IMG/VR virus record: IMGVR_UViG_3300025168_000255 | Location: 1 to 36,823 of that record | Strand: one strand, 5' to 3' | DNA length: 36,823 nucleotides | From: a virus | In this document: positions 4,299 through 35,307 of the stretch, one piece after another | Layout: every line of letters starts with the position of its first letter | Position numbering within the stretch: position 1 is the stretch's first letter | Translations under genes and position numbers: made by a program | The notes under the pieces: generated by a model | Told to the model about the DNA's origin: nothing | Database searches by the model: none | The model's input: the letters and a program-made list of their open reading frames with translations, nothing else

Positions 4299-5669
4299 CT
4301 ATTTTATATCTATTATAACGCCATTAGCATCAACTGTTATGTCTCGCCCTCCTAACGGTACTCCTCCGTTATCTTCAGGGTTGCCATTCAGTGTATTTAG
4401 TTCATTTAAAGGATAAAAATTTTGTTGCAAATAACCATCCATATCTTGTATAGCAAATTCTCCAGACTCTCCCATCTGTTTACCTCTTAATTTTGCTCTA
4501 TCAATATCTGACTGAGAATAACTGATAAGATCGTTCAATAAAGCTCTATTTACTACCGTTGATTGATTTTCATTTGCCTCTATACTAGCTAACAAATCAC
4601 CCTCTCGTGCTGTAAAAGCAGCCCCAAAAGTAGGCTTTAATTGTTGTAGAACATTTTTACGCAAAATGTACGCAAGCCTTCCTTCATCGGCAGGAGTAAT
4701 ACCTAAAGCTCTTCTAAGTTTTATTCCTAAAGATGCTATTCCACCAGTTTCAACTACTTCTAATATTTTTAATGCGTCTTGAAGTCTTTGCATATTTCTT
4801 GCAGCTCTTATTCCTGTATCTAAAACGTCCTGATTCCTTATTTCTGTAGCGGATCCTCTGGCCTTTTCTGAGGCTATTTGCCCTGCTTCAACAATGCCAA
4901 ACTCGTTTGCTTCATTTAATACGGTTCTTATTTCATTAGGGTCTGTTATTAAATTGCCTGTCCTGTCATATACTTTTTGTGGACCTATTCTTGGCTTTTC
5001 AATAAAAACTCCGTTGCCGAATGAAATAGTTTTAGACGCGCCCATTTGACTGTCAGCACCACCATAAAGCATAAATTCTCTACGATCTGCCGAACCTTTT
5101 TGCAAACCAGCAGCATCTGCTTGCATTTCCAATGCTCTAAATGTTTGAGGAACGTCACCGAAATAACCACTTTGTTGTCCCATAGCTACAGCGCGTTCCA
5201 AATCATCAGAGACAGCACCAAAACCGCCTGTCTGGAAGTCTTGCAAAGTATTTTCGCTCTCTGTTGAGTCTATACCCATCTGTCTTTCTAGCTGAATTCT
5301 GTCTTGCATTAAATCAATGAATCCTTGAGTGTCTCCACTTTGAGCCATTAGCAATCCAGCTTGAGCGTCCTGAGCAATAGTCTTAGCTAGAGCCTCGCGC
5401 ATCTGCAACGACTGCATACCCTGAGCTTGTCTCATTTGATTTTCTTGCATTAACTGTTGCTCAAACTGTGGCAATCTTCCACCTACAGCAGCACCTAGAG
5501 CTCTAAATCTGTCACCCTGACTTATATCTCCGTATAGGCTTGGTCTTTGGTTAGTAGGCTGTTGATTTAACCCAGCCAGCCCCATAGCGGTCTGACCTAC
5601 GTTTCTACCAACATCCATTGCTGTTTGACCAACACCGCTTAAAGCGTTTCTGATATCTTCTAATGCCAT
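4299..5669 (-). CDS. Ejection-type virion protein (456 aa)
   Basis: A Gln/Met/Ala-rich protein. The first 40 residues repeat GQTAMxxG twice, residues about 65-140 are helical and rich in Gln and Met (QMRQAQGMQSLQMREAL), and the remainder is mixed helical with no membrane segment. Soluble, helix-rich, Gln/Ala-rich proteins in this location are typical of P22-type ejection proteins (gp20 in P22 is of similar length), but I do not recognise a specific family. It lies 8 nt downstream of the 593-aa gene and 17 nt upstream of the 603-aa gene, all on one strand, so it is probably co-expressed late and packaged in the virion. The name is by context. Confidence 0.6.
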   Translation of the reverse strand: MALEDIRNALSGVGQTAMDVGRNVGQTAMGLAGLNQQPTNQRPSLYGDISQGDRFRALGAAVGGRLPQFEQQLMQENQMRQAQGMQSLQMREALAKTIAQDAQAGLLMAQSGDTQGFIDLMQDRIQLERQMGIDSTESENTLQDFQTGGFGAVSDDLERAVAMGQQSGYFGDVPQTFRALEMQADAAGLQKGSADRREFMLYGGADSQMGASKTISFGNGVFIEKPRIGPQKVYDRTGNLITDPNEIRTVLNEANEFGIVEAGQIASEKARGSATEIRNQDVLDTGIRAARNMQRLQDALKILEVVETGGIASLGIKLRRALGITPADEGRLAYILRKNVLQQLKPTFGAAFTAREGDLLASIEANENQSTVVNRALLNDLISYSQSDIDRAKLRGKQMGESGEFAIQDMDGYLQQNFYPLNELNTLNGNPEDNGGVPLGGRDITVDANGVIIDIK

Positions 5670-11896: not shown

Positions 11897-13165
11897 TTAT
11901 ACACCGAACCCATGCCCAGCCATGAACGGATTAAACGTGGCATATGCAGGAAGTAAGTCGAAACGTACTTTCTGCGTATTAGCGTCACCGTCTGAGTATT
12001 TACTAACTCGGATAGACATGCCGTCTTCAGTAGTGGCAATCGTGTCAGTTGAATACAACTTCGGCAACTTAACAGTACCAATACCAAAAGCTTGCTTCAT
12101 ATAGAACAAGTTCGGCTGATAAGTAGTGGCAGAAGCAGAACAGATTGTAACAACCGCACCGTTAGCAGGAGCAGCGTCAACCGTATTGTACTGACCACCA
12201 GCCTCAAAGATAGCTGGGCCAGCTACTACTAGAGTACCTGCACCTGCACCACTTAAGGTAACGTCAGCAGTCACAACGCCTGTCCACGGAACCGCAGCAC
12301 CATTCTCATCGATCATAGCAACACGAGAGTTGATGTTTAGACGGTTAACGTCAGCGATCTTAATCATATCGCCAGCCTTAACTACCATGTTTGCCTGTAG
12401 AGCAGTGACAGCGATGTTTTGCGTCATTGTGTCTTTAGCTGTGACATAAGTAGCGTCAGGAGCAGCACTTAGTGTACCTGCGCGGTCTGCACCAGTACCT
12501 GAAGTGAAAGTGTTTAAACTTTGAGAAGTCAACGCTCGAAGTCCACCAAAGTTGGCAGAAATCTGGCTGTTTTCCCACGCTGTACGAACAAGTTGGTCAG
12601 CAGCATTTAAGCCATTTTGCTTATCTGCAAGCTTAGTCGCTGTGAAAGGGTTCATCACATAATACTTATCGACTTCAGCCGGGACACCTACGCTATCGAG
12701 TAGCGCACCAGCACCAGCTATATCAGTCCAAGCATCAGCAAAGACACCGTGAGTACCATAGCGTAGCGAAGCGTTCTTCAACATATAACCACCAAGATCA
12801 GTCTCTAAGTCAGTTACAATTCTTCGAGCCATAGGCGCGAGGATCTGCTCTAACTGATCGAGCTCTAATGCTTCCTGGATGTTGGTGAACTCTGTAGCCA
12901 CTGTGAAGTAAGGCTGTACTGTACCTGTTGCCTTACCTGCAATGATATCTGACTTAGTTTGACCAGTAAGGTCACCGCCAGCGGTTCGGATTGAGTTGTA
13001 GTCGTGAGGACGTTTAAAGTCTACGTTGGAGCCTGTAGATGGGCTGAATCGACCACTAAGAAGCTGTGTATCGACAGTTTTAGTTAATACTCGTGCGCTT
13101 TCAAACGCATTTAGGAAGACCCTCGCTAAGGGTCTGGTAATGTTACTTGATAGATTATTAGCCAT
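11897..13165 (-). CDS. Major capsid protein, P22 coat (gp5) family (422 aa)
   Basis: Family pattern: an N-terminal helix with ALARVFLNAFESARVLTKTV-like sequence (NITRPLARVFLNAF), a FKRPHDYNSIRTAGGDLTG segment, and a helix with QEALELDQLEQILAPMARR that matches the HK97-fold spine of P22-type coat proteins. An Ig-like insertion-type beta region follows (about 225-345). Length is close to P22 gp5 (430 aa). It sits between scaffold and the tail accessory genes, 16 nt after the scaffold stop, and is followed by a strong terminator, as expected for the most abundant product. The ribosome site GAGGT lies about 10 nt upstream of ATG. Confidence 0.9.
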   Translation of the reverse strand: MANNLSSNITRPLARVFLNAFESARVLTKTVDTQLLSGRFSPSTGSNVDFKRPHDYNSIRTAGGDLTGQTKSDIIAGKATGTVQPYFTVATEFTNIQEALELDQLEQILAPMARRIVTDLETDLGGYMLKNASLRYGTHGVFADAWTDIAGAGALLDSVGVPAEVDKYYVMNPFTATKLADKQNGLNAADQLVRTAWENSQISANFGGLRALTSQSLNTFTSGTGADRAGTLSAAPDATYVTAKDTMTQNIAVTALQANMVVKAGDMIKIADVNRLNINSRVAMIDENGAAVPWTGVVTADVTLSGAGAGTLVVAGPAIFEAGGQYNTVDAAPANGAVVTICSASATTYQPNLFYMKQAFGIGTVKLPKLYSTDTIATTEDGMSIRVSKYSDGDANTQKVRFDLLPAYATFNPFMAGHGFGV

Positions 13166-13181
13166 TTCTGGATTACCTCAT

Positions 13182-13988
13182 TCATTCAAAGATTGCTCCT
13201 TTCGGTGCCTTTGCAGAGGGAGCTTTACCTGCTCTCTCTGGCGTGTTCACCGGGTCTGGAGCCGCATTTACTTTAGGTTTAAGTGCAGATGCCTTTCCAC
13301 GAACGTGTGTTGCTATCCTAGCTGCCGCCTGTGTAGGAGACATCGCCCGAAGATTATCCAATTCAGTAAAATTCTGACTGAGGTACTTGGTAATGACAGG
13401 TCCAAGATCATCTTCTAAAATATAGTTAATGACTTCTTGTGACATGCCATGCTGCACTGCGTTACCAGCAGCTTGCAGTTCCTCTGTCGAGATACCTAAT
13501 TGAACGGATCTCTGGGTATAAGTAGCTACTTTATCGTTAAAAAGCTCCTGCTCTTTATTTTGCTGCTCTTGATAAACCCTCTGGCGTTCCTGTTCACGGA
13601 TACGCTGTTGAGTGTCATATGCAGCCTGTCTAGCTATGGCCTCATCTCTTAATCGCGCCTGTTGTTGAAAATCCGCTTCGCTTAACGCAAAAGGATCAGG
13701 CTCTTTCGGGACCGCTGGCCTCTGCTCTTTAGGAATCTGCTGCTCTAAGTTTTTAATTTTGTTATTTAAAGCTTCAAGTTCACGCTCTGATGCTCTGCGC
13801 TTACCTCTCTCCTTATAAATCTGTTCATTAAAAACTTTTTGCTGCTCTTCATTAAAAAGCGGTTCGGTTTGTTTCTCCTGAACCTCTTCAGTATCCGGTG
13901 ATGATTCGGAGTCAGTCTCCTGACCTTCAGTTTCTACCTCTTCAAGCTCAACATCTTGAGCCTCATCAAGCGTATCGTCTGGTTCCAT
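13182..13988 (-). CDS. Scaffolding protein (268 aa)
   Basis: The N-terminal 45 residues are strongly acidic (EELEEVETEGQETD type). Residues about 45-170 are a long Glu/Gln/Arg coiled coil (RGKRRASERELEALNNKIKN; QQRIREQERQRVYQEQ). The C-terminus is basic and Pro/Ala-rich with lysines (GKASALKPKV; GKAPSAKAPKGAIFE). An elongated coiled coil with a basic C-terminal coat-binding tail is the layout of P22 gp8 (303 aa), which drives procapsid assembly and then exits. It lies directly upstream of coat. Assignment is by composition and synteny, since scaffolds conserve little sequence. Confidence 0.8.
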   Translation of the reverse strand: MEPDDTLDEAQDVELEEVETEGQETDSESSPDTEEVQEKQTEPLFNEEQQKVFNEQIYKERGKRRASERELEALNNKIKNLEQQIPKEQRPAVPKEPDPFALSEADFQQQARLRDEAIARQAAYDTQQRIREQERQRVYQEQQNKEQELFNDKVATYTQRSVQLGISTEELQAAGNAVQHGMSQEVINYILEDDLGPVITKYLSQNFTELDNLRAMSPTQAAARIATHVRGKASALKPKVNAAPDPVNTPERAGKAPSAKAPKGAIFE

Positions 13989-14079
13989 CGTTTTTACCTA
14001 TGTAAATGCCTTAATGAGCGGTAAGGTTCCGTTGCTCCAGAAAAGCGTGGAGTGCGCTATGGTGTAAATATATCATAAT

Positions 14080-14108
14080 TTTACAAAAAGCAATACTTTT
14101 GATAGTAT
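14080..14108 (+). promoter_or_regulatory. Sigma70-like promoter of the plus-strand 55-aa gene
   Basis: TTTACA at 14080-14085, a 17-nt spacer and TAGTAT at 14103-14108. The ATG of the plus-strand gene follows 6 nt after the -10 box, where transcription would start, so the mRNA would be leaderless. No Shine-Dalgarno sequence precedes the ATG. The -10 region overlaps a 7-bp inverted repeat (14091-14110) that could be an operator. Confidence 0.55.
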
Positions 14109-14110
14109 TG
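14085..14110 (-). terminator. AU-rich hairpin with T-run between the 516-aa gene and scaffold
   Basis: On the minus strand CAATACT-ATCAAA-AGTATTG (14110-14091) forms a 7-bp stem followed by CTTTTTG. It could terminate transcripts leaving the terminase-portal-516-aa unit. The stem is AU-rich, so termination may be partial. The same palindrome overlaps the -10 box of the plus-strand promoter, so an operator role is the alternative. Confidence 0.5.
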
Positions 14111-14114
14111 ACAT

Positions 14115-14282
14115 ATGAAATACAAACTTAAATCTAATTCAGCAAAAACTTGGTTTGATACCCTAACTACTGATCATAGTAATTTTGATATTGATACTTT
14201 AGATTATTTACTCGAATCAGATAATATTATTAATGAAGACAAGATTATCTTAAAAGATTATTTTAATACTTTTAAGGCTTAA
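14115..14282 (+). CDS. Small plus-strand gene, 55 aa, possibly leaderless
   Basis: The frame starts ATG at 14115 (MKYKLKSNSAKTWFDTLTTD) and ends TAA at 14282. The product is acidic and Asp/Asn/Ile-rich with one Trp, without membrane segment or Cys. It is the only plausible gene on the plus strand within the 23-kb late region, and fills the gap between scaffold and the 516-aa gene, whose last 11 nt it overlaps tail to tail. A good promoter places the start of transcription at or near the ATG. In AT-rich DNA a 55-codon frame by chance is unlikely but not excluded. I do not recognise the protein. Candidates are a small regulator or an accessory (moron) gene that entered with the 516-aa gene. Confidence 0.5.
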   Translation: MKYKLKSNSAKTWFDTLTTDHSNFDIDTLDYLLESDNIINEDKIILKDYFNTFKA

Positions 14283-15822
14283 TCAATCCTTTTCTAATTA
14301 ACTCATCTACCATTTCTCTAGTAATTATTCCGTGACCTCCGGGTAAAAACGCCTTCATTGTCGGAGAGTCCAACAATCCTCCAATCTCAAAATCTCTACC
14401 AGCATCTAATTGTTTCTGCCTAAAATCGTAAAAACCTGTATCCGCTGTTCCTCCTAATGGATTGAAGTTGAATATGTTTGCTTTGCCATTATCTTTTAGT
14501 GCTCCTAACGGCCTACCCTGTAGAGCCGCTGTATATGATGGATGATCGCTTTGTAAAAAACTTTTGTTTGCAACGGCAGTTGGGTCTAGCTCGTAAATCA
14601 TATCTATATCACCAAATCTAGGGCTGAATTGTTTTGGGTCTGTAACAATAGCCCTTACTTGAGATTTGTTTAAAGAACCTGAATCTTTAGTTATTGCTCG
14701 GCTTTCTGATGAAAATTCGTCTAAAGCTTTTGTAACGCTTTTCCTTGCACCTCCAAGGTTTGCTAAATATTCTGGAGTAGCTTTATCAATGCCTATCCAA
14801 TCTTTTATTGGTGCCAGTTCATTTGTTTTTGTTCCAGATCCTGTTCGTATTCTTTTATCTAATATTTTTTTATCTGCTTTACTCATAACTTTTTGAGCGT
14901 AAGGCACCATTATATCTGTGCTCATAGTCGCAAAGTCTGGGCTCTCTGGCCTCATACCAAAAGGTATAAATGCAACAGGTCTGTCTCCTAAAGCTTGAGC
15001 CGATTCTGCACGATTAAGCTGACCTTTTACTGCTCCAGGAGCAGAAGCAAAAGCTATGTTTCTTTTTAAATTTTCTGGCTGAAGACCAAAGTATTTACCT
15101 CCACGCATGACAGCATTTAATGGAACATTATTTACAGATGTCACTGTTTCTAAACCGCTACGGCTTGTATCGGACATACCTGTTATAAACGGCCTGTCTA
15201 TTAAATCTTCCGCTGTGATTAATGGGGCTTGAGAGATAACAGGATCAGTCATCTCTACCGTCATTTCGTTTACAGACTTTGGGTCACCAATTCTTTGTAA
15301 TAACTCTGTGTCTCTTGTTACTTCAGGAATTGGCCCACCAAAATTCCGCAAGGCTGATTCACCTTTCTTTAATCCTTTAGCAAGAAGATCACCAGCAATC
15401 GGGATGGTTCCTAGAGCAACAGCAGCACCATCGATACCCATGCCTAGCCTATCCCCGGAGCTTATGGACTGACGCAGATCTCCTACACCTACCGCATCAC
15501 CGACTCCGGGTATGAAGTCCAGCGAGAACTCTGTAGCGTCTGATAGGTTTTCTAGCCCCTGCTTGTATCCACCACTAAAGCCAAAGTCATCAATAAATTC
15601 TCTCATTTTAGAACCAACCGATGCCCGGAAGTTAGGATTGAAAGGATTTACAGTGCTCTCAAACGGCTTCATGTCCTGACCAACATAGGTTGATCGTATT
15701 TGATCTTCAGTAAAGCCTCTTCTTTTGGCTTCATCCAAAGCTTCTTGTTGTGATATTTCTGGTAGCGGATTCTCTCTAGTGTATCCAGCTAAACTTTCAA
15801 TATCTCTTAACGCACTAGCCAC
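14272..15822 (-). CDS. Accessory protein of unknown function between portal and scaffold (516 aa)
   Basis: The frame starts with GTG at 15822, with GGAGA about 7 nt upstream, and overlaps the portal stop by 8 nt. Residues 102-152 form a hydrophobic Gly-rich hairpin (DFIPGVGDAVGVGD ... ALGTIPIAGDLL), similar to the linker before toxin domains of polymorphic toxins and also found in large phage virion proteins. The C-terminal part has conserved-looking blocks (RPVAFIPFGMRPESPDFATM; KDWIGIDKATPEYL; AIVTDPKQFSPRFGDID; SDHPSYTAAL) that I recall from uncharacterised phage proteins thought to be carried in virions. P22 has no gene at this position. No catalytic motif is evident. It may be co-packaged and injected, or simply a passenger gene. 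Confidence 0.7.
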   Translation of the reverse strand: MASALRDIESLAGYTRENPLPEISQQEALDEAKRRGFTEDQIRSTYVGQDMKPFESTVNPFNPNFRASVGSKMREFIDDFGFSGGYKQGLENLSDATEFSLDFIPGVGDAVGVGDLRQSISSGDRLGMGIDGAAVALGTIPIAGDLLAKGLKKGESALRNFGGPIPEVTRDTELLQRIGDPKSVNEMTVEMTDPVISQAPLITAEDLIDRPFITGMSDTSRSGLETVTSVNNVPLNAVMRGGKYFGLQPENLKRNIAFASAPGAVKGQLNRAESAQALGDRPVAFIPFGMRPESPDFATMSTDIMVPYAQKVMSKADKKILDKRIRTGSGTKTNELAPIKDWIGIDKATPEYLANLGGARKSVTKALDEFSSESRAITKDSGSLNKSQVRAIVTDPKQFSPRFGDIDMIYELDPTAVANKSFLQSDHPSYTAALQGRPLGALKDNGKANIFNFNPLGGTADTGFYDFRQKQLDAGRDFEIGGLLDSPTMKAFLPGGHGIITREMVDELIRKGLIKP

Positions 15823-18031
15823 CGTTTGCTCTCCTAATAATATCTATATCAGGAATTGATCCTATCTGCCTCATTCTTTCCTCTTCAGCCATTTCGTTCA
15901 TCTTGCGCTGGTTGTCTATCTCATCACCAAACGCTTTAGTATTAGTATGATCTATCGTGGCACCAGCCTTCTCAGCTTCTACCTGCGTCTTAATCCTGCT
16001 GGTTTGAGCATTAAAGACATCGACCTGATTCTTGGCCTGATCCGCAACCACATCGTTCTGTTCTCGTTGTGCGTCTAGCTGTATACGCATAGTGTCATTC
16101 ACAACCTTCTGCTGTTCTACTTGGACCTTCATCAAGTCAGCTTGAGCCTTCATCTGTTCAGCTTGCGCTAGGACCATGTTTGGATCTGGTGCCTGTTGCT
16201 GTCCTTGTTCCATCTGCACTTTCATTTGATCGAGCTCATCTTGGGTCATCTGACTCTGTGGTATCAAACCCTGAGCTATCATTTGTACACGCTTACGCTC
16301 TGCGATCTGCGAGGCAGCAGGTGTATTAACGTTCTGTAACAACAGGTCTCCAGCTATCTGCATAAGACTTGGATCTACCTGAGCCAGCGCAGTTATTGAT
16401 TCAACAGTCTCTTGCTGTCTGTTCCTAAAGCTAGGTCCAGCGCGACACACAACATCATAAGTACCTACGCTTAAGTCATTAACCGTCTTAACTTCCCCGG
16501 TCTCTTCATTTATGACCTTTTGATCCAATCTAACCATGTCATAAGACTCATCCTCACGTAGTATGCGAATAGTTCTCTGGGTATCGTACATCAAAGGTAT
16601 AGCATCTTTTAAGATTCGCCCTGTAGCAGCTATGGCGATCTCTAAGCTCTTTGTGTACTTAAACGTAGAGTTGCTGCCCCGGTCTTGGAGCTCCTTAATC
16701 GCTATGCCTGACTGTGCGTTAGGGTTGTCTCCCATACTTGCGGCAAACATACCAGCGGTCTGACCGATCATGGACCTCATGGCTTCAGATATTGTTCTTA
16801 GCCCCGGATTGATCTGTGCTCCACCTTGCTGCTGCGGAGGTGCAGGTGACTCTGGGTCAACATTATAGAACTGTACTGGGTCTGCGTTAGTATTTAGAGT
16901 GCTTAATTTTTCTTCGTAACCTGCTGCTTGAGTAGCAGTAACCCAATACTTAGCGCGTGGTGCAAGAGCTCCTTCCTCAATCTCCCGTGACACTGAATAA
17001 TTCATCACTCTTTGAGGGTCTAGTAGCTTCTCAACTACGCCCCAGTAAATTGTCTTGTTCTCAATAATCTTGTAATTAGCGTAAGTTGGAACTATGGGAA
17101 TGCGGCAAAATACAGTAGGTTTCTTTTCTTCAAGGAAGTCTTTAGCATCAAAGTAGCGACTACATACATAATGCTTCTTGCGCGTCCTGCGTCTAACCTC
17201 TGTGACATCAAGTTTCGCTAAATCATCTACTATTTGCTTATAGTCATCGTCTACTTCATGGGTCTGACCATTAGACATCAAGACTAACTCTCTCTCCTCA
17301 GACTCAAGATAGAGAAACTCACCAACAACAACGACCTCAGCCTTATCGTAGTAAGCTTGACCGTCACGGTCATCTGATACGCTTTCCTTACTACCGTTAG
17401 GCCATCGTGCTTCATACTCATCTATCGCCATCGGATGTAAGCAAAAGGCATATCTACTGTCTGACTTGTCTTGGAGCTCTGCGCTAGGATCAAACCAAAC
17501 CCGGTCTACAAAGTTACCAATCTTCTCGATAGCAAGGTCTTGGTCAAACGAGTTGTCATCTATAAACTTCTGCACTATTCGCCAACCATCCATACCACCG
17601 ACTATCATTCCTCTAGCCGCTTGAGAGTAGACCGTAGAAGCATTGCTCATAGCCTCGATGTTACGAATAATCCCATCATAGGTCATGGCTATGTCTTTTG
17701 TAGCCTTACCACCAGCAGGGCTTATCCGAACGTCAAAGTCAGATTGCTCTATCTCGGAGGCAACCTGATCCACTATTGGGTTTACCATATCAAAGGTATA
17801 TCTTGGCTTCTCTGCATCTTTGTTTTGAGCAATAGCATACGGATCCCACATGCCGTCACGTTTGTTGATAAAGAGCATAGACTCTCGGAGCATCTCCCGG
17901 TTATCACAGTCTGCACTCTGGCAATTTGCCAATAACTTTATTACCGAATCGTGCGTACTGTAATCAGCTTTGTAAGATAAATCACTCTCTACAGAACCTC
18001 GGTCCTCTTCACCATCTTCATAATCAACCAT
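15815..18031 (-). CDS. Portal protein, P22 gp1 family (738 aa)
   Basis: Length is close to P22 gp1 (725 aa). The pattern fits the P22-type portal: KPRYTFDMVNPIVDQVASEI near residue 75 and IRPAGG-like DVRISPAGGKATKDIAMTYD. GWRIVQKFIDD follows, then RVWFDPSAELQDKSDSRYAF and the central VVEKLLDPQRVMNYSVSREI. The C-terminal ~130 residues are a Gln/Met/Ala helix (barrel-like; MKVQMEQGQQQAPDPNMVL), as in P22, where the barrel reaches into the capsid. The dodecamer forms the DNA channel and docks the terminase. Its start overlaps the large terminase stop by 8 nt, and it is followed by the 516-aa gene, then scaffold and coat. Confidence 0.92.
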   Translation of the reverse strand: MVDYEDGEEDRGSVESDLSYKADYSTHDSVIKLLANCQSADCDNREMLRESMLFINKRDGMWDPYAIAQNKDAEKPRYTFDMVNPIVDQVASEIEQSDFDVRISPAGGKATKDIAMTYDGIIRNIEAMSNASTVYSQAARGMIVGGMDGWRIVQKFIDDNSFDQDLAIEKIGNFVDRVWFDPSAELQDKSDSRYAFCLHPMAIDEYEARWPNGSKESVSDDRDGQAYYDKAEVVVVGEFLYLESEERELVLMSNGQTHEVDDDYKQIVDDLAKLDVTEVRRRTRKKHYVCSRYFDAKDFLEEKKPTVFCRIPIVPTYANYKIIENKTIYWGVVEKLLDPQRVMNYSVSREIEEGALAPRAKYWVTATQAAGYEEKLSTLNTNADPVQFYNVDPESPAPPQQQGGAQINPGLRTISEAMRSMIGQTAGMFAASMGDNPNAQSGIAIKELQDRGSNSTFKYTKSLEIAIAATGRILKDAIPLMYDTQRTIRILREDESYDMVRLDQKVINEETGEVKTVNDLSVGTYDVVCRAGPSFRNRQQETVESITALAQVDPSLMQIAGDLLLQNVNTPAASQIAERKRVQMIAQGLIPQSQMTQDELDQMKVQMEQGQQQAPDPNMVLAQAEQMKAQADLMKVQVEQQKVVNDTMRIQLDAQREQNDVVADQAKNQVDVFNAQTSRIKTQVEAEKAGATIDHTNTKAFGDEIDNQRKMNEMAEEERMRQIGSIPDIDIIRRANGG

Positions 18032-19964: not shown

Positions 19965-20741
19965 TCACATTACCGCCTTAATTATTTCTGCTGCCGCTTG
20001 TGGGACAATCGCGTTACCTGCTCCCCTGAGTATGCCCACTCTATTGGGTATCCCATCAAGTAAAGGGAAAAGCGCGGATTCAACTGGGATGGGACGGTGC
20101 TTTCCGTCTCGGCAGTGGATAAGGGTTGAGCCTGACCACAAAGTTGAGCAGCTACGTCTAACGTGTCCACCGATAACTTGCCGTTGCGAATCCGACCGCC
20201 GATGTAACCGCCTTTGTGATCTCTGGTCGATGGTGTCGGCCACGCGCCTGGCTGTGAAGAAGAGTCTGTCCCTTTTGTGGTACGCACCGACAGCCCCAGA
20301 TGGGAGTACACACGCTGCTGAGGCGTAACCTTCTTTCTCAAAGTCATTTTGTAGATCATCGAGCCATCCAAATTTGATAGCTGATGCAACTTGTTCTCCA
20401 AACACTGCTGGAGGATTGCGCTCTCTAATGAGATTAAAGAAGACAGGCCAGAGGTGTCGGCTATCGTCTTTTCCCTTACCTTTTCCAGCGACTGAGAAGG
20501 ATTGACACGGAGGGCTTCCTGTCCAAACAGGTCGGCTTGAGTCCCACTGGGCAAGTTCGAGTGCTCTTGACCATCCACCGATTCCTGCAAAGAAATGGCA
20601 TTGCGTGTAATCACTAAGTTCTCTTGCATGGACATCCACGATTGATCGCTCATCTACATCTCCATAAGGTATCAATTTATCTGAAATTAGTTGGTTTAAC
20701 CACTTTGCGGCGAAAGGATCGAATTCATTATAATAATTCAC
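19965..20741 (-). CDS. DNA cytosine-5 methyltransferase, short (258 aa)
   Basis: Motifs in order: I, FFAGIGGWSRAL (about 50-61); IV, TGSPPCQSFSVAGKGKG with the catalytic Cys; VI, VFGEQV in place of the usual ENV; VIII, KRDRLFF; X, GNAIVPQ. The enzyme transfers a methyl group from AdoMet to C5 of cytosine, probably protecting phage DNA from host restriction or affecting packaging. The region between motifs VIII and X, which holds target recognition, is only about 80 residues, and the whole protein is shorter than usual (over 300 aa). There is no partner restriction gene, so it is an orphan enzyme. It overlaps the zinc-finger gene by 4 nt and abuts the small terminase. Confidence 0.88.
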   Translation of the reverse strand: MNYYNEFDPFAAKWLNQLISDKLIPYGDVDERSIVDVHARELSDYTQCHFFAGIGGWSRALELAQWDSSRPVWTGSPPCQSFSVAGKGKGKDDSRHLWPVFFNLIRERNPPAVFGEQVASAIKFGWLDDLQNDFEKEGYASAACVLPSGAVGAYHKRDRLFFTARRVADTIDQRSQRRLHRRSDSQRQVIGGHVRRSCSTLWSGSTLIHCRDGKHRPIPVESALFPLLDGIPNRVGILRGAGNAIVPQAAAEIIKAVM

Positions 20742-24092: not shown

Positions 24093-24674
24093 ATGGATAA
24101 TCAATTATTTTGGAAGGCTTTTAGTGATGCCCAAAAACGTTTCATCACGCCTGAAAAAGACGGCATCAACACGCACATAAAAAACCAATATTACAAGTTA
24201 GAAACATTGTTGCCGCCAGCGATGAAAGCTTTTTCGGATAACGGCATTTTATTTTATTTTGAGGATATCAACAACGAACGTGATGCAGGTGTCCGTATCC
24301 ATCTTAGACATCTAGCAAGTAATCAGCATCACAGCCAAACTTGCCTTGTTGATAAAGAAAAGCTCGGTGCTCAAGCTACTGGTGGATGCTACACGTATGC
24401 CAAAAGATACCTTCTAGCAAGCCTCTTTTTAATTTCAGACCCTAAGCTTGATGATGATGCAGAATTTGCTACGCATGGTGATCGAACACAACAAAGTAAA
24501 TACCACGGACCTATTGATTCTAAAATTATTGATAATCTCAAAAAACAACTAGCAGAAGTCAATGTGAACGATGAAGAAGCTTTGAAAAGCGTAAAAGCTG
24601 AGGACTGGAGTCTGACCCCTAAGCAAATTAAAATCTTGCAAGCAAAGATTGACGTTCGCAGGAACAAATCTTGA
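24093..24674 (+). CDS. erf: Erf-family single-strand annealing protein (193 aa)
   Basis: Residues 94-115 hold the ERF signature (QATGGCYTYAKRYLLASLFL), followed by the acidic DPKLDDDAEF. The N-terminal part has the expected pattern, a helix (FWKAFSDAQKRF), NQYYKLETLLPPAMKAF and a GILFYFEDINN strand. The C-terminal ~60 residues are a helical extension (KIIDNLKKQLAEVNVNDEEA). P22 Erf anneals complementary strands and circularises or concatemerises the genome for replication and headful packaging. It is the first gene of the rightward operon and partner of the next exonuclease gene, which starts within its stop codon. The ribosome site (ACGGGA) is weak and about 8 nt upstream. Confidence 0.85.
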   Translation: MDNQLFWKAFSDAQKRFITPEKDGINTHIKNQYYKLETLLPPAMKAFSDNGILFYFEDINNERDAGVRIHLRHLASNQHHSQTCLVDKEKLGAQATGGCYTYAKRYLLASLFLISDPKLDDDAEFATHGDRTQQSKYHGPIDSKIIDNLKKQLAEVNVNDEEALKSVKAEDWSLTPKQIKILQAKIDVRRNKS

Positions 24675-32993: not shown

Positions 32994-33562
32994 GGCTGTA
33001 CTCCTAAAAATTCTCGTTTATCAAATTTGTATTCAACATAAGGACCATTTTTATCTACGTAATGCAGCATAAATTGAACGTTCATTTGATCTTTAACCAA
33101 TTTTCTTCTCCAGTGCAGTGTTTCGCAACCTTTATAAATTGCAGCATCTCCAGCAGATAGTATTAATTTTGATGGATCATTATCTTCGTACTGCATCCAA
33201 ATAGGCCACGGGTTTCCAGTACAAGCAACATTAACAGTTACACTGATTTCACATGAAGGTCTATCTGTGTGAGGTTGTAGCTCTTCACCTTCTTGATAAA
33301 CCCTACTAAATGAATAAGTAGGTTCTAAGTTCAGTCCTGTATGCTCTTCTACTAGAGGCAAATATTCTTTAAGAATTGTTTCTATTAAAGGATCTGCGTA
33401 ATAACTAAATTTACTAGAATCACCAGCAGAAATTATTTCTTTAGCTAACCACTCGCCTCGTTTTATTTTATTTTCAAAATACTGAGATATTATGCTTATA
33501 GATTGTTGATCTATAAATTCTGACACTTTAACAAACCCAAAGTCTTTAAATTTATTAATCAA
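32984..33562 (-). CDS. 2OG-Fe(II) oxygenase D (192 aa from TTG start)
   Basis: The start is taken as TTG at 33562, overlapping the stop of the preceding oxygenase (CTTGATTAA). The next upstream ATG (33667) would overlap that gene by 113 nt. The double-stranded beta-helix metal site is visible: QPHTDRP (H98, D100) and the distal CETLHWRR (H150), with strands ISVTVNVACTG and AAIYKGCE between. This is the Fe(II)/2-oxoglutarate dioxygenase pattern (HxD...H), which hydroxylates a substrate using O2 and 2OG. The arginine that usually binds 2OG is not obvious at the C-terminal strand. It is the fourth oxygenase in the run and ends 10 nt inside the adhesin start. Substrate unknown. Confidence 0.75.
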   Translation of the reverse strand: MINKFKDFGFVKVSEFIDQQSISIISQYFENKIKRGEWLAKEIISAGDSSKFSYYADPLIETILKEYLPLVEEHTGLNLEPTYSFSRVYQEGEELQPHTDRPSCEISVTVNVACTGNPWPIWMQYEDNDPSKLILSAGDAAIYKGCETLHWRRKLVKDQMNVQFMLHYVDKNGPYVEYKFDKREFLGVQPCL

Positions 33563-34148
33563 GAAGAAACCATCCTGTTGCAATGTATTTTGTATTATCA
33601 CCGTACACAGGGTTCCCTCGGTGCATATGTGTGTACCCGGCAGGCCATAAAACCATAGTATTTTCAACAGGTCTTATTCTACGCTGTTGATATAAAAATT
33701 CAGTTTCCCCATTAGCATCTTCAGGAAGAGTATTTAAATACAACATATAAACTACCGCTCTTCTTGAATCCCAAGGACCGTTTGCTTGTTCAGAGTGCCA
33801 TACGTGATAACCGTTTCCTGAAGAAATTTCTTGTATTTTTATATTATTGCAAGATAACTTTACATCTTTAAGATAAGAAAATTGTTCTGAATACAAATCA
33901 AAACATCTTTGTAAACCTTCAAAAAAAATTATGTCAAATGGATTATTTTTAAAGTTTTCAAAACCAGACATTAGGCTTAAAGACATAAAACTATCTTCTT
34001 TATAATGTTTAGAAATGCCGTTTTCTTCTTGTCGAGTTCTTGCTCCATACTTTTTATTTTTTTTAAATTCCAAAATTAAATGTTGACAATATCCTTCAGG
34101 ATAAACGTTTGGGAAAGTACCTATAAAATCTTTATATTTAATGTTCAT
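33555..34148 (-). CDS. 2OG-Fe(II) oxygenase C (197 aa)
   Basis: The metal-site pattern is YHVWHSEQANG, giving H118 and E120 (H-x-E instead of the usual H-x-D), then RRAVVYMLYLN, ETEFLYQQRRIRPVENTMVL and the distal WPAGYTHMHRGN (H174 or H176), with K187 and YIATGWF at the 2OG-binding strand. This is the prolyl-4-hydroxylase-like layout known from phage 2OG oxygenases. The protein is cytoplasmic by sequence. It overlaps the previous gene by 4 nt and the next by 8 nt. The target residue or molecule is not evident. Functional status is good: all strands are present and no stop interrupts it. Confidence 0.85.
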   Translation of the reverse strand: MNIKYKDFIGTFPNVYPEGYCQHLILEFKKNKKYGARTRQEENGISKHYKEDSFMSLSLMSGFENFKNNPFDIIFFEGLQRCFDLYSEQFSYLKDVKLSCNNIKIQEISSGNGYHVWHSEQANGPWDSRRAVVYMLYLNTLPEDANGETEFLYQQRRIRPVENTMVLWPAGYTHMHRGNPVYGDNTKYIATGWFLLD

Positions 34149-34729
34149 TTAAAAGGTGTCCCTGATACCCATGTTACTAATGTTTGACGATTTCCTTTTG
34201 TAACAGGAGTTACTTGATGCAAAGTCCATGAAGGAAATACAGTAATAAGACCACGCTTCTTTTCAATACAAGTTGGTGTTTTAGAATTTAATAATTGCAA
34301 CTCTCCTCCTTCGTAATCGTCTGGCTCTGAAAGTTGTAAAACCAAAGATAGTTTTCGGGATGGTCCCTCATTGCCAAAGTCTTGATGCCATGTGTACATT
34401 CCTTGCTCTGACTCGTTGTAATTAGTAAGCTGAAGTTTTTCACCAAAACCTGTCAAATCAAACCTAAAAAAACTTGCATTTAAACTTGAAACAACATGAG
34501 CTAAATTTTCAAAAACCCAAGAATTTTCGTTGTTTTTACTTAACCAATTGAGTTTTGATCTTCTTATTTCAGAAATAGTTTCTCCGAGTTTTTGACCTCC
34601 TACTAACGCTTTTTGTGAGGCTTTCTTTGTTTGATCCTGTAACCAGTTCAATTGTTCTTCGTTAAAAGCACCCTCCCACCAAGCAAAAGGTTCTATTCGT
34701 TTAGTGTAAGGAGTCACTAAGTGTTCCAT
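34145..34729 (-). CDS. 2OG-Fe(II) oxygenase B (194 aa)
   Basis: Clear PKHD-type metal and cofactor site: TWHQDFG (H115, D117), then RKLSLVLQLSEPDDYEGGEL, FPSWTLHQV (H171) and GNRQTLVTWVSG (R181 binding 2-oxoglutarate). N-terminal helices (FNEEQLNWLQDQTKKASQKA) complete the fold. It is the most canonical of the four oxygenases. It would hydroxylate an unidentified substrate, possibly a phage protein such as a tail fibre. It shares one base with oxygenase A and 4 nt with oxygenase C, so the run is translated as a coupled set. It is distinct in sequence from its neighbours, so the four genes are not recent duplicates. Confidence 0.9.
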   Translation of the reverse strand: MEHLVTPYTKRIEPFAWWEGAFNEEQLNWLQDQTKKASQKALVGGQKLGETISEIRRSKLNWLSKNNENSWVFENLAHVVSSLNASFFRFDLTGFGEKLQLTNYNESEQGMYTWHQDFGNEGPSRKLSLVLQLSEPDDYEGGELQLLNSKTPTCIEKKRGLITVFPSWTLHQVTPVTKGNRQTLVTWVSGTPFK

Positions 34730-35307
34730 TAAACAAACCTCTTATTACAAGATAGTACAAAGTGAATAAACTTTGTTGGCGTTTGGACCTGATTGGGCGT
34801 AATCATGTGAGGCAACCAGCTATTAAAAAACATCATGGTACCGGGCTTAATGTTATTAAAGTGTACTTGAGGTGTTGCTAACGTAATTTCTTCGCTTGGC
34901 GAAGGCCACAGATCCGTCATTTTTTTTCCGGGTCTAGGGTCATCAAAAATAGGATACGATCCTCCTTCTGGTGTTTCTAAAAAATAAAAACCTGAAATCT
35001 GACTGTTTGCATGAACGTGCAAGAAGTTGCTCCCAGTACAAGCAAACTCCTGTCCCCACATACCTGATAAATAAAACTCATGTTCATCTGTAAAATAACC
35101 TTGTTCCTTTAAAATACTAACGCCTTTATCTTTAAAGTAAGACGCTAAATACCCAAGGTCAGGGTCATTCGCCATAGGACTAGTTTGTTTAACTATCGAA
35201 GGCTCCATTTGCTCATAATATTGTTGAGTATGTTTTAGTGTTTCTTTTACCCACTCCACACGTTCTTCTCGATAAATAAGAGAAGGGAAGTAAGAGTAAG
35301 CGTCCAT
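34729..35307 (-). CDS. 2OG-Fe(II) oxygenase A (192 aa), putative-2OG family 5 type
   Basis: The metal-site pattern is NFLHVHANSQISGFYFLE (H97, H99), then DDPRPGK and the distal FFNSWLPHMITPN (H167), the layout I recall for the 2OG-FeII_Oxy_5 family common in marine phages and cyanobacteria. The usual C-terminal R-x-S-x-x-F-N strand reads FIHFVLSCNKR here. The start at 35307 overlaps the stop of the 78-aa gene. The first 52 residues are almost the same as the partial gene at 1-157, and 127 nt in this region (35151-35277) are exactly repeated at the window start. It lies directly after fibre B and its companion gene. Substrate unknown. Confidence 0.87.
   Translation of the reverse strand: MDAYSYFPSLIYREERVEWVKETLKHTQQYYEQMEPSIVKQTSPMANDPDLGYLASYFKDKGVSILKEQGYFTDEHEFYLSGMWGQEFACTGSNFLHVHANSQISGFYFLETPEGGSYPIFDDPRPGKKMTDLWPSPSEEITLATPQVHFNNIKPGTMMFFNSWLPHMITPNQVQTPTKFIHFVLSCNKRFV
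35151..35277. repeat. 127-bp exact direct repeat, copy 2
   Basis: Identical to 1-127. It lies inside oxygenase A, covering residues about 11-52. Immediately to the right the sequences diverge (35278 onward versus 128 onward), while still encoding homologous genes. If the genome is circular, joining here gives a 35,150-bp map. Confidence 0.95.

Follow-up and report, generated by a model that had tools for sequence, protein, structure and literature searches.

Temperate phages carry toxins of the MuF type, for which Jamet et al. (2017), in the available text of their study, proposed that immunity is provided by small ORFs following the toxin genes (PMC5576092). Polyvalent proteins, as described by Iyer et al. 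(2017), are multidomain cargo proteins that are encoded near virion genes and were proposed to be injected; the terms 'immunity protein' and 'antisense' are absent from the main text of that paper as it was available (PMC5512222). In polymorphic toxin-immunity systems, a swappable C-terminal tip is accompanied by an adjacent cognate small gene that is exchanged with it, and in the portion of their survey available here Zhang et al. (2012) counted same-strand unidirectional genes as operons and checked head-to-head pairs for shared promoters (PMC3482391), criteria under which, we infer, tail-to-tail partners would readily escape notice. Other phage-borne polymorphic toxins with immunity genes are described, in the accessible part of a further report, for mycobacterial and Streptococcus phages (PMC9503650).

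Here we analyse a locus of a P22-like phage in a window of 36,823 nucleotides, the whole stretch of IMG/VR virus record IMGVR_UViG_3300025168_000255, in which a 516-aa cargo gene faces a 55-codon gene on the opposite strand. As far as the available text of the MuF study allows comparison, the likenesses are a gene just downstream of the portal gene, a constant N-terminus with a variable C-terminal effector, and an adjoining small ORF, there of less than 150 aa and proposed to confer immunity (PMC5576092). However, no MuF domain was found in the window cargo protein, and here, in P22-like phages, the small gene is encoded tail-to-tail on the other strand and has a promoter-like site of its own. 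The integrase family PF00589 was found neither in the window nor in any of 12 related records, and PF00239 in none of 10 records including the window, in records that may be incomplete. Homologues in the same genomic slot resemble polyvalent proteins in having ART-PolyVal and LPD23 domains and sub-threshold methyltransferase matches, none of which is seen in the window protein, but the two classes of C-terminal tip considered below, A and B, have no convincing Pfam family. The locus resembles polymorphic toxin systems in that a constant N-terminal part is joined to differing C-terminal tips (for example in locus L029) and a small gene is exchanged with the tip, but the partner is convergent and not co-directional, so that the pair forms no same-strand operon. 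Type II toxin-antitoxin systems consist of two small co-transcribed genes, whereas these genes are convergent and one is a 516-aa modular gene. A literature search confined to open-licence papers, mostly at the level of listings, brought up no paper that we recognised as describing this cassette. We propose that the product of the small gene is most likely an immunity or antitoxin-like protein.

Results

A modular cargo gene in the portal-scaffold slot

The features of the locus are collected in Table 1. Relatives of at least part of the 516-aa protein are encoded in 45 IMG/VR loci and a related scaffold protein in 74, and the cargo genes between portal and scaffold range from 429 to 1071 aa among complete cases. 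Residues 38-159 of the window protein are 95% identical in L029, whose C-terminus differs, and L012, L013 and L018, which have other N-terminal parts, share its tip at 77-78% identity. ART-PolyVal and LPD23 domains were found above the Pfam cut-off in the slot homologues L029, L069, L104 and L064 (PF18760, ART-PolyVal, at E 3.2e-11 in L104; PF18838 at E 2.2e-10 in L064), and the methyltransferase matches in slot occupants fall below that cut-off. The original prediction had regarded the 516-aa gene as an insert acquired jointly with the small gene; the link between the two stands, but homologues or other modular cargo fill the same slot, and on these comparisons the gene is one variant among the modular, polyvalent-type cargo genes that P22-like phages carry between portal and scaffold. 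The window protein has no Pfam or PHROG family up to E 1, including MuF, ART-PolyVal and LPD domains; a phage collection held nothing matching it or the tip of L127, a genome contig collection held no relative of the A tip, and sequence searches against solved structures were uninformative.

Table 1. Features of the small gene, the cargo gene and their borders in the window
Feature	Position	Strand	Remarks
Scaffold gene	13182..13988	-	Downstream slot border; phrog_8865, E 2e-20
Candidate minus-strand promoter, extended -10 TGA-TATATT	14067..14072	-	For scaffold/capsid; by eye
-35-like hexamer TTTACA of small gene	14080..14085	+	Sequence
-35-like TTGCTT of candidate scaffold/capsid promoter	14088-14093	-	By eye
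Inverted repeat CAATACT (14091-14097) / AGTATTG (14104-14110)	14091..14110		Over the -10 box
-10-like hexamer TAGTAT of small gene	14103..14108	+	4/6 consensus positions; TG extension; ends 6 nt before ATG
Small convergent partner gene	14115..14282	+	55 aa, acidic, pI 4.75; three predicted helices
Cargo gene, proposed effector	14272..15822	-	516 aa, modular; between portal and scaffold
C-terminal domain (tip), class A	14275..15360	-	362 aa modelled, pLDDT 88.8
N-terminal module	15346..15822	-	About residues 1-159; common to cargo genes with other C-termini
P22-type portal gene	15815..18031	-	Upstream slot border; PF16510, E 1e-138

The slot looks like a general insertion site. In Pseudoalteromonas phage H6/1 (L144, KX257490.2) positions 4789-5478 hold four annotated small ORFs on the opposite strand and no cargo gene, and Vibrio phage 234P9 has only a short gap at the slot. 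In L142 (MW202879.1) an unannotated antisense frame of 64 aa overlaps the end of the cargo gene (stop at 5029) and may be another partner or a chance frame. A survey that left out repeated downstream sequences yielded a second antisense ORF of 57-66 aa, alike among L134, L136 and L139, which lies about 167-367 nt after the cargo stop, upstream of partner B (see below), and possibly forms a two-gene antisense operon with it.

The small plus-strand frame is very probably a real protein gene

The 55-codon frame, with its ATG and stop codon, is where it was originally read. It is also, as claimed, the only gene against the late direction: in a gene list drawn from the ORF table without a gene caller, minus-strand genes tile positions 157-22668 and the next accepted plus-strand gene starts at 24093. 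This tiling has four gaps of more than 60 nt, the largest of which (283 nt, 13989-14271) contains the small gene, whose 3' end overlaps the cargo gene tail-to-tail by 11 nt.

A frame that is short, has a G+C content of 22.6% (41.6% for the whole window) and follows a consensus promoter match of a kind common by chance could be an accident of AT-rich spacer DNA, and its exact copy has no informative close relative. However, a leave-one-out profile, built without the window sequence, matched the window ORF at E 4.5e-7 as its sole match among 513 window frames of at least 30 aa. It also recovered L108, L109/L111, L020, L021 and the L003-like group; L113 followed at E 0.064 and L024 at E 0.89, the partners in L126/L127 were not recovered and that in L116 gave no match, and since profile detection was weak or absent in these cases, L126/L127 and L024/L113/L116 were assigned by position. 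With tblastn, antisense frames 25-27% identical were found at the equivalent place in other loci; depending on the alignment, the window partner is 10-30% identical to its relatives, though the tips reach 80% identity.

The substitution pattern also argues against a chance frame. A dN/dS ratio was obtained for 32 of 38 small-gene pairs, which share sequences and are not independent, after the codons overlapping the cargo gene had been trimmed; all ratios lie between 0.00 and 0.31 and 28 of the 32 within 0.03-0.2, synonymous sites being saturated in the other six pairs. In 11 untrimmed pairs, codon positions 1, 2 and 3 hold 90, 69 and 200 differences. Relatives of the small gene in the equivalent position thus evolve under purifying selection, as judged from these substitutions. 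The original prediction looked to close relatives for a broken frame or a lost promoter: both are intact in the L002/L106 contig, but this contig is identical to the window over the small gene (0 differences) and therefore uninformative, so that selection on the window's own copy is read from its family. Together with the conserved start and promoter geometry described below, the profile detection and the selection in relatives make a chance frame very improbable indeed, and they uphold the earlier suggestion of a small protein gene. The protein is modelled as three helices (pLDDT 90.3); fold searches returned nothing beyond a general helical resemblance (best Z 4.2, with Foldseek E above 1), neither PADLOC nor Pfam gave a match, and three matches at E 8 in the phage collection were taken as noise.

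The partner follows the C-terminal tip of the cargo protein

We searched 142 sequences, a set extended by class A and B tip searches, with profiles of the two tips and the two partners, and merged loci from one contig by contig name before counting. The partner is a small acidic ORF of 48-63 aa that lies tail-to-tail with the cargo gene, and all 28 partners tested are acidic, with net charges of -2 to -11. Partner A is present in 34 of the 55 A-type contigs, the window included; 16 have room for a partner but none was recognised and five are truncated, which gives 34 of 50 that can be judged. Partner B is present in 16 of the 17 B-type contigs and the remaining one is truncated (16 of 16 judgeable); presence counts of both types are partly circular, as the profiles were built from many of the counted loci, and many contigs are near-identical. 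The contigs left out as truncated are cut off within about 110 nt of the tip end (L026, L028, L117, L121 and L125 of type A and L141 of type B), and a contig-edge fragment in L094 is the sole partner without a visible tip. There are no mixed pairs: the A tip occurs only with partner A and the B tip only with partner B. Tip and partner distances are correlated (Mantel r 0.73, p 0.0002, n 16), also when scaffold distance is taken into account (partial r 0.72, n 13). By these comparisons, partner class goes with the class of the cargo C-terminus and not with the N-terminal module. No A- or B-type partner was seen beside cargo genes that lack both tips, such as those of L029 and L104 (ART-PolyVal).

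The A-type contigs without a recognised partner are L025/L027/L082, L118-L120, L122-L124 and the seven of the A5 group. Partner A was looked for in 11 records, ten belonging to these 16 contigs, and did not turn up; the search lacked a positive control, covered partner A only and was made in records that may be fragments. Among the slot cargo genes whose modules were compared above, the distance from cargo stop to scaffold gene is 108-231 nt in loci without a recognised partner and 247-386 nt in those with one. Either the cargo can do without a partner in these 16 contigs, or they encode one that went unrecognised.

Cargo tips A and B are probably related to each other: L041, L137, L138 and L140 score 48-51 bits with the A tip profile, and one phage protein of MW202879 was matched by queries of both kinds, A5 and B, with direct comparison of the two tip profiles giving only 15%. 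A single superfamily of partners A and B was also considered and found no support (hhalign 2.2%).

The occupation of the slot in phage H6/1 by opposite-strand small ORFs with no cargo gene would suit an unrelated early or moron gene, for example one with an anti-defence function, that sits next to the cargo gene by coincidence. Such a gene would not be expected to pair A with A and B with B or to diverge in step with the cargo tip, and the small protein has no PADLOC or Pfam match; we consider this explanation improbable.

Cargo gene and partner are exchanged together

Pairs of closely related contigs that differ in tip class delimit the exchanged segment. L007 (A) and L039 (B) share 96.6% identity across the 1562 nt that run through the portal gene to where the cargo gene starts, and 97.1% across the 1759 nt from the small-gene ATG through scaffold and capsid; between these flanks they have different cargo and partner genes, save for 307 nt of the N-terminal module that are 87% identical. 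The flanks of L003 (A) and L036 (B) are 93.7% and 98.8% identical, with a 299-nt block at 91% within the differing cargo. Upstream of the small-gene ATG, 299 of 300 nt are identical in L007/L039, where alone the exchange border lies exactly at the ATG. The border in L003/L036 is inside the promoter, 11 nt before the ATG (289/300 identical), and L013 (A) and L054 (B), with 296/300 identical, differ within the 6 nt that precede the ATG; L054 is too short to show the other border. The remaining three of the six A/B pairs compared are identical upstream at 270/300, 288/303 and 260/305 positions. From these alignments, the small gene and all or most of the cargo gene were replaced together, leaving the greater part of the promoter region in place. 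Joint acquisition, as originally predicted, is therefore borne out for cargo and partner, which differ together in L007/L039 and L003/L036, but not for the promoter region, which largely stays in the backbone.

The exchange bears on the second part of the earlier suggestion, 'small protein or antisense control'. A plus-strand transcript that enters the cargo gene could lower its expression, the peptide being secondary, and the 11-nt convergent overlap would fit, as would the lack of a terminator-like site after the ORF (the sole one in 12000-17000 is at 13911). Nevertheless, antisense RNA would not need the protein-level purifying selection that is seen outside the overlap, nor does it account for unrelated partner proteins A and B behind nearly identical upstream sequence, and we regard antisense control as distinctly improbable.

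A promoter-like site at a conserved distance from the start codon

The predicted arrangement, TTTACA-N17-TAGTAT followed by 6 nt and the ATG, was confirmed. A bare consensus match is not above chance (seven promoter-like sites in 5 kb, 8.8 expected), so the case for a promoter rests on comparison; hexamers scoring equal to TAGTAT occur at two other offsets in the window, and likewise in several other loci. We compared 17 near-relative loci with distinct upstream or protein sequences, leaving out the fragment L094; by eye they come down to about seven distinct promoter sequences, so that they do not count as independent. In 16 of the 17, exactly 6 nt separate the end of a -10-like hexamer from the ATG, the exception being L048, where TATAAT ends 5 nt before it; TG is present at the extended -10 position in 14 of 17, and a Shine-Dalgarno motif upstream of the small gene in none. 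When the upstream 60 nt of ten loci were shuffled, p was 0.02-0.07 for the exact hexamer and 0.001-0.005 with TG included, values from related loci that cannot simply be multiplied. Six distant loci tested (L108, L109, L113, L134, L137 and L041) have Shine-Dalgarno motifs and not the 6-nt geometry, which indicates that the near-leaderless geometry belongs to this phage group and not to the whole system. The claim of a leaderless promoter thus gains support, at sequence level, from the conserved position in near relatives. The 7-bp palindrome reported at the -10 box does exist but is not kept in the sister locus L024; it is probably incidental, and a role as operator was rejected on the same ground.

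By eye, a candidate minus-strand promoter for the scaffold gene lies back-to-back with that of the small gene and overlaps its -35 element, an overlap that would let the two promoters exclude each other. The scaffold leader is strongly conserved between the window (13989-14078) and its relatives; by eye it has an extended -10-like TGGTATAGT, short inverted repeats and, in relatives, a CCACATATTGTGG palindrome, and it is probably a scaffold/capsid promoter and leader.

An element of 76-80 nt was observed in eight relatives (L007:3302-3380, L013:3784-3863, L015:2428-2506, L020:2591-2666, L048:2647-2722, L068:5806-5884, L075:1342-1417 and L085:4460-4535) and was not seen at the corresponding place in the window. 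On the scaffold strand it folds into a 7-bp closing stem with a hairpin which, on visual inspection, looks like the T-arm of a tRNA; four of 17 pairs are changed on both sides among the eight sequences and the other strand folds far worse. ARAGORN found no tRNA in it and no Rfam family matched at gathering score; at a loose Rfam threshold, the L048 element gave one chance-level match only.

The promoter also bears on whether the small protein could be a packaging chaperone or adaptor that keeps the cargo C-terminus inactive or foldable or docks it to the procapsid. Such a protein would equally account for the pairing, the joint exchange and the acidity, and in its favour no A/B-type partner was seen beside cargo without an A or B tip (L029, L104), which points to a domain-specific need. 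A chaperone would be expected in the same late operon, whereas the small gene has its own sigma-70-type promoter-like site on the opposite strand, and the 16 A-type contigs (of 50) without a recognised partner also speak against it. A chaperone is in our judgement unlikely, though it deserves serious consideration.

The class A tip may have a PUA-like core

The class A tip was modelled with a pTM of 0.86. Among viral predicted structures, 17 resemble it with E of at most 0.001, of which 11 come from uncultured Caudovirales phages and one, from a Flavobacterium phage, is labelled as a structural protein; Foldseek of the model against the PDB gave nothing significant. VIA-align ranked 21 YTH rows first (best Z 6.1 and rmsd 3.9 for 140 of the 362 residues, short of what is regarded as reliable), followed by 2gbs and 1zce, which we take to be EVE domains, then by an unrelated pyrin domain (Z 3.1) and, just below it, by ZmASCH, 5y6b (Z 3.0). 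The best structural neighbours are thus PUA-like domains of the YTH/EVE/ASCH kind, described in the available parts of a ZmASCH study (PMC5615036) and an EVE survey (PMC7641849), with no supporting sequence match. We tentatively suggest from the model that the tip has a PUA-like core and may act on RNA or modified nucleic acid; RNA is named because ZmASCH is, in the accessible text of that study, a ribonuclease (PMC5615036).

Elsewhere in the window, three consecutive genes at 33555-35307 match 2OG-Fe(II) oxygenase families, and a DNA methyltransferase-like gene lies at 19982-20653 beside the terminase small subunit gene. The latter is worth noting, since modified bases can be recognised by folds of the YTH/EVE type.

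Discussion

We think it probable, with some reserve, that the 55-aa gene encodes a dedicated partner of the C-terminal domain of a virion-delivered effector, most likely an immunity or antitoxin-like inhibitor. The cargo protein would probably be packed into the head and enter the host along with the DNA; its gene lies among the head genes, and one fold neighbour is labelled as a structural protein. On the minus strand among these genes, the cargo gene is presumably expressed late. The partner, on the other strand behind what would be an independent sigma-70-type extended -10 promoter, would be transcribed from at or beside its ATG and would need neither late activation nor a ribosome-binding site, so that it could be made upon entry of the phage DNA and during production of the effector. 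The two genes form a tail-to-tail unit that is inherited and exchanged as a whole. What speaks most against immunity is the group of 16 A-type contigs without a recognised partner.

A more specific version, which we hold to be rather unlikely, is that the delivered effector strikes RNA or translation through its PUA/ASCH-like tip, that the leaderless mRNA of the antidote could still be translated when ribosomes or mRNAs are damaged, and that the ATG marks the recombination border of the exchanged cassette.

If the immunity reading is right, P22-like phages would have toxin-immunity cassettes of their own with an unusual layout, in which the partner lies on the opposite strand, is near-leaderless in this group and is exchanged with the effector. 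Surveys that seek same-strand partners would easily miss such a layout. The proposal also makes testable why some cargo tips in the slot have a partner and others, some with ADP-ribosyltransferase domains, have none recognised, and families A and B would provide ready cognate pairs for binding and cross-protection tests.
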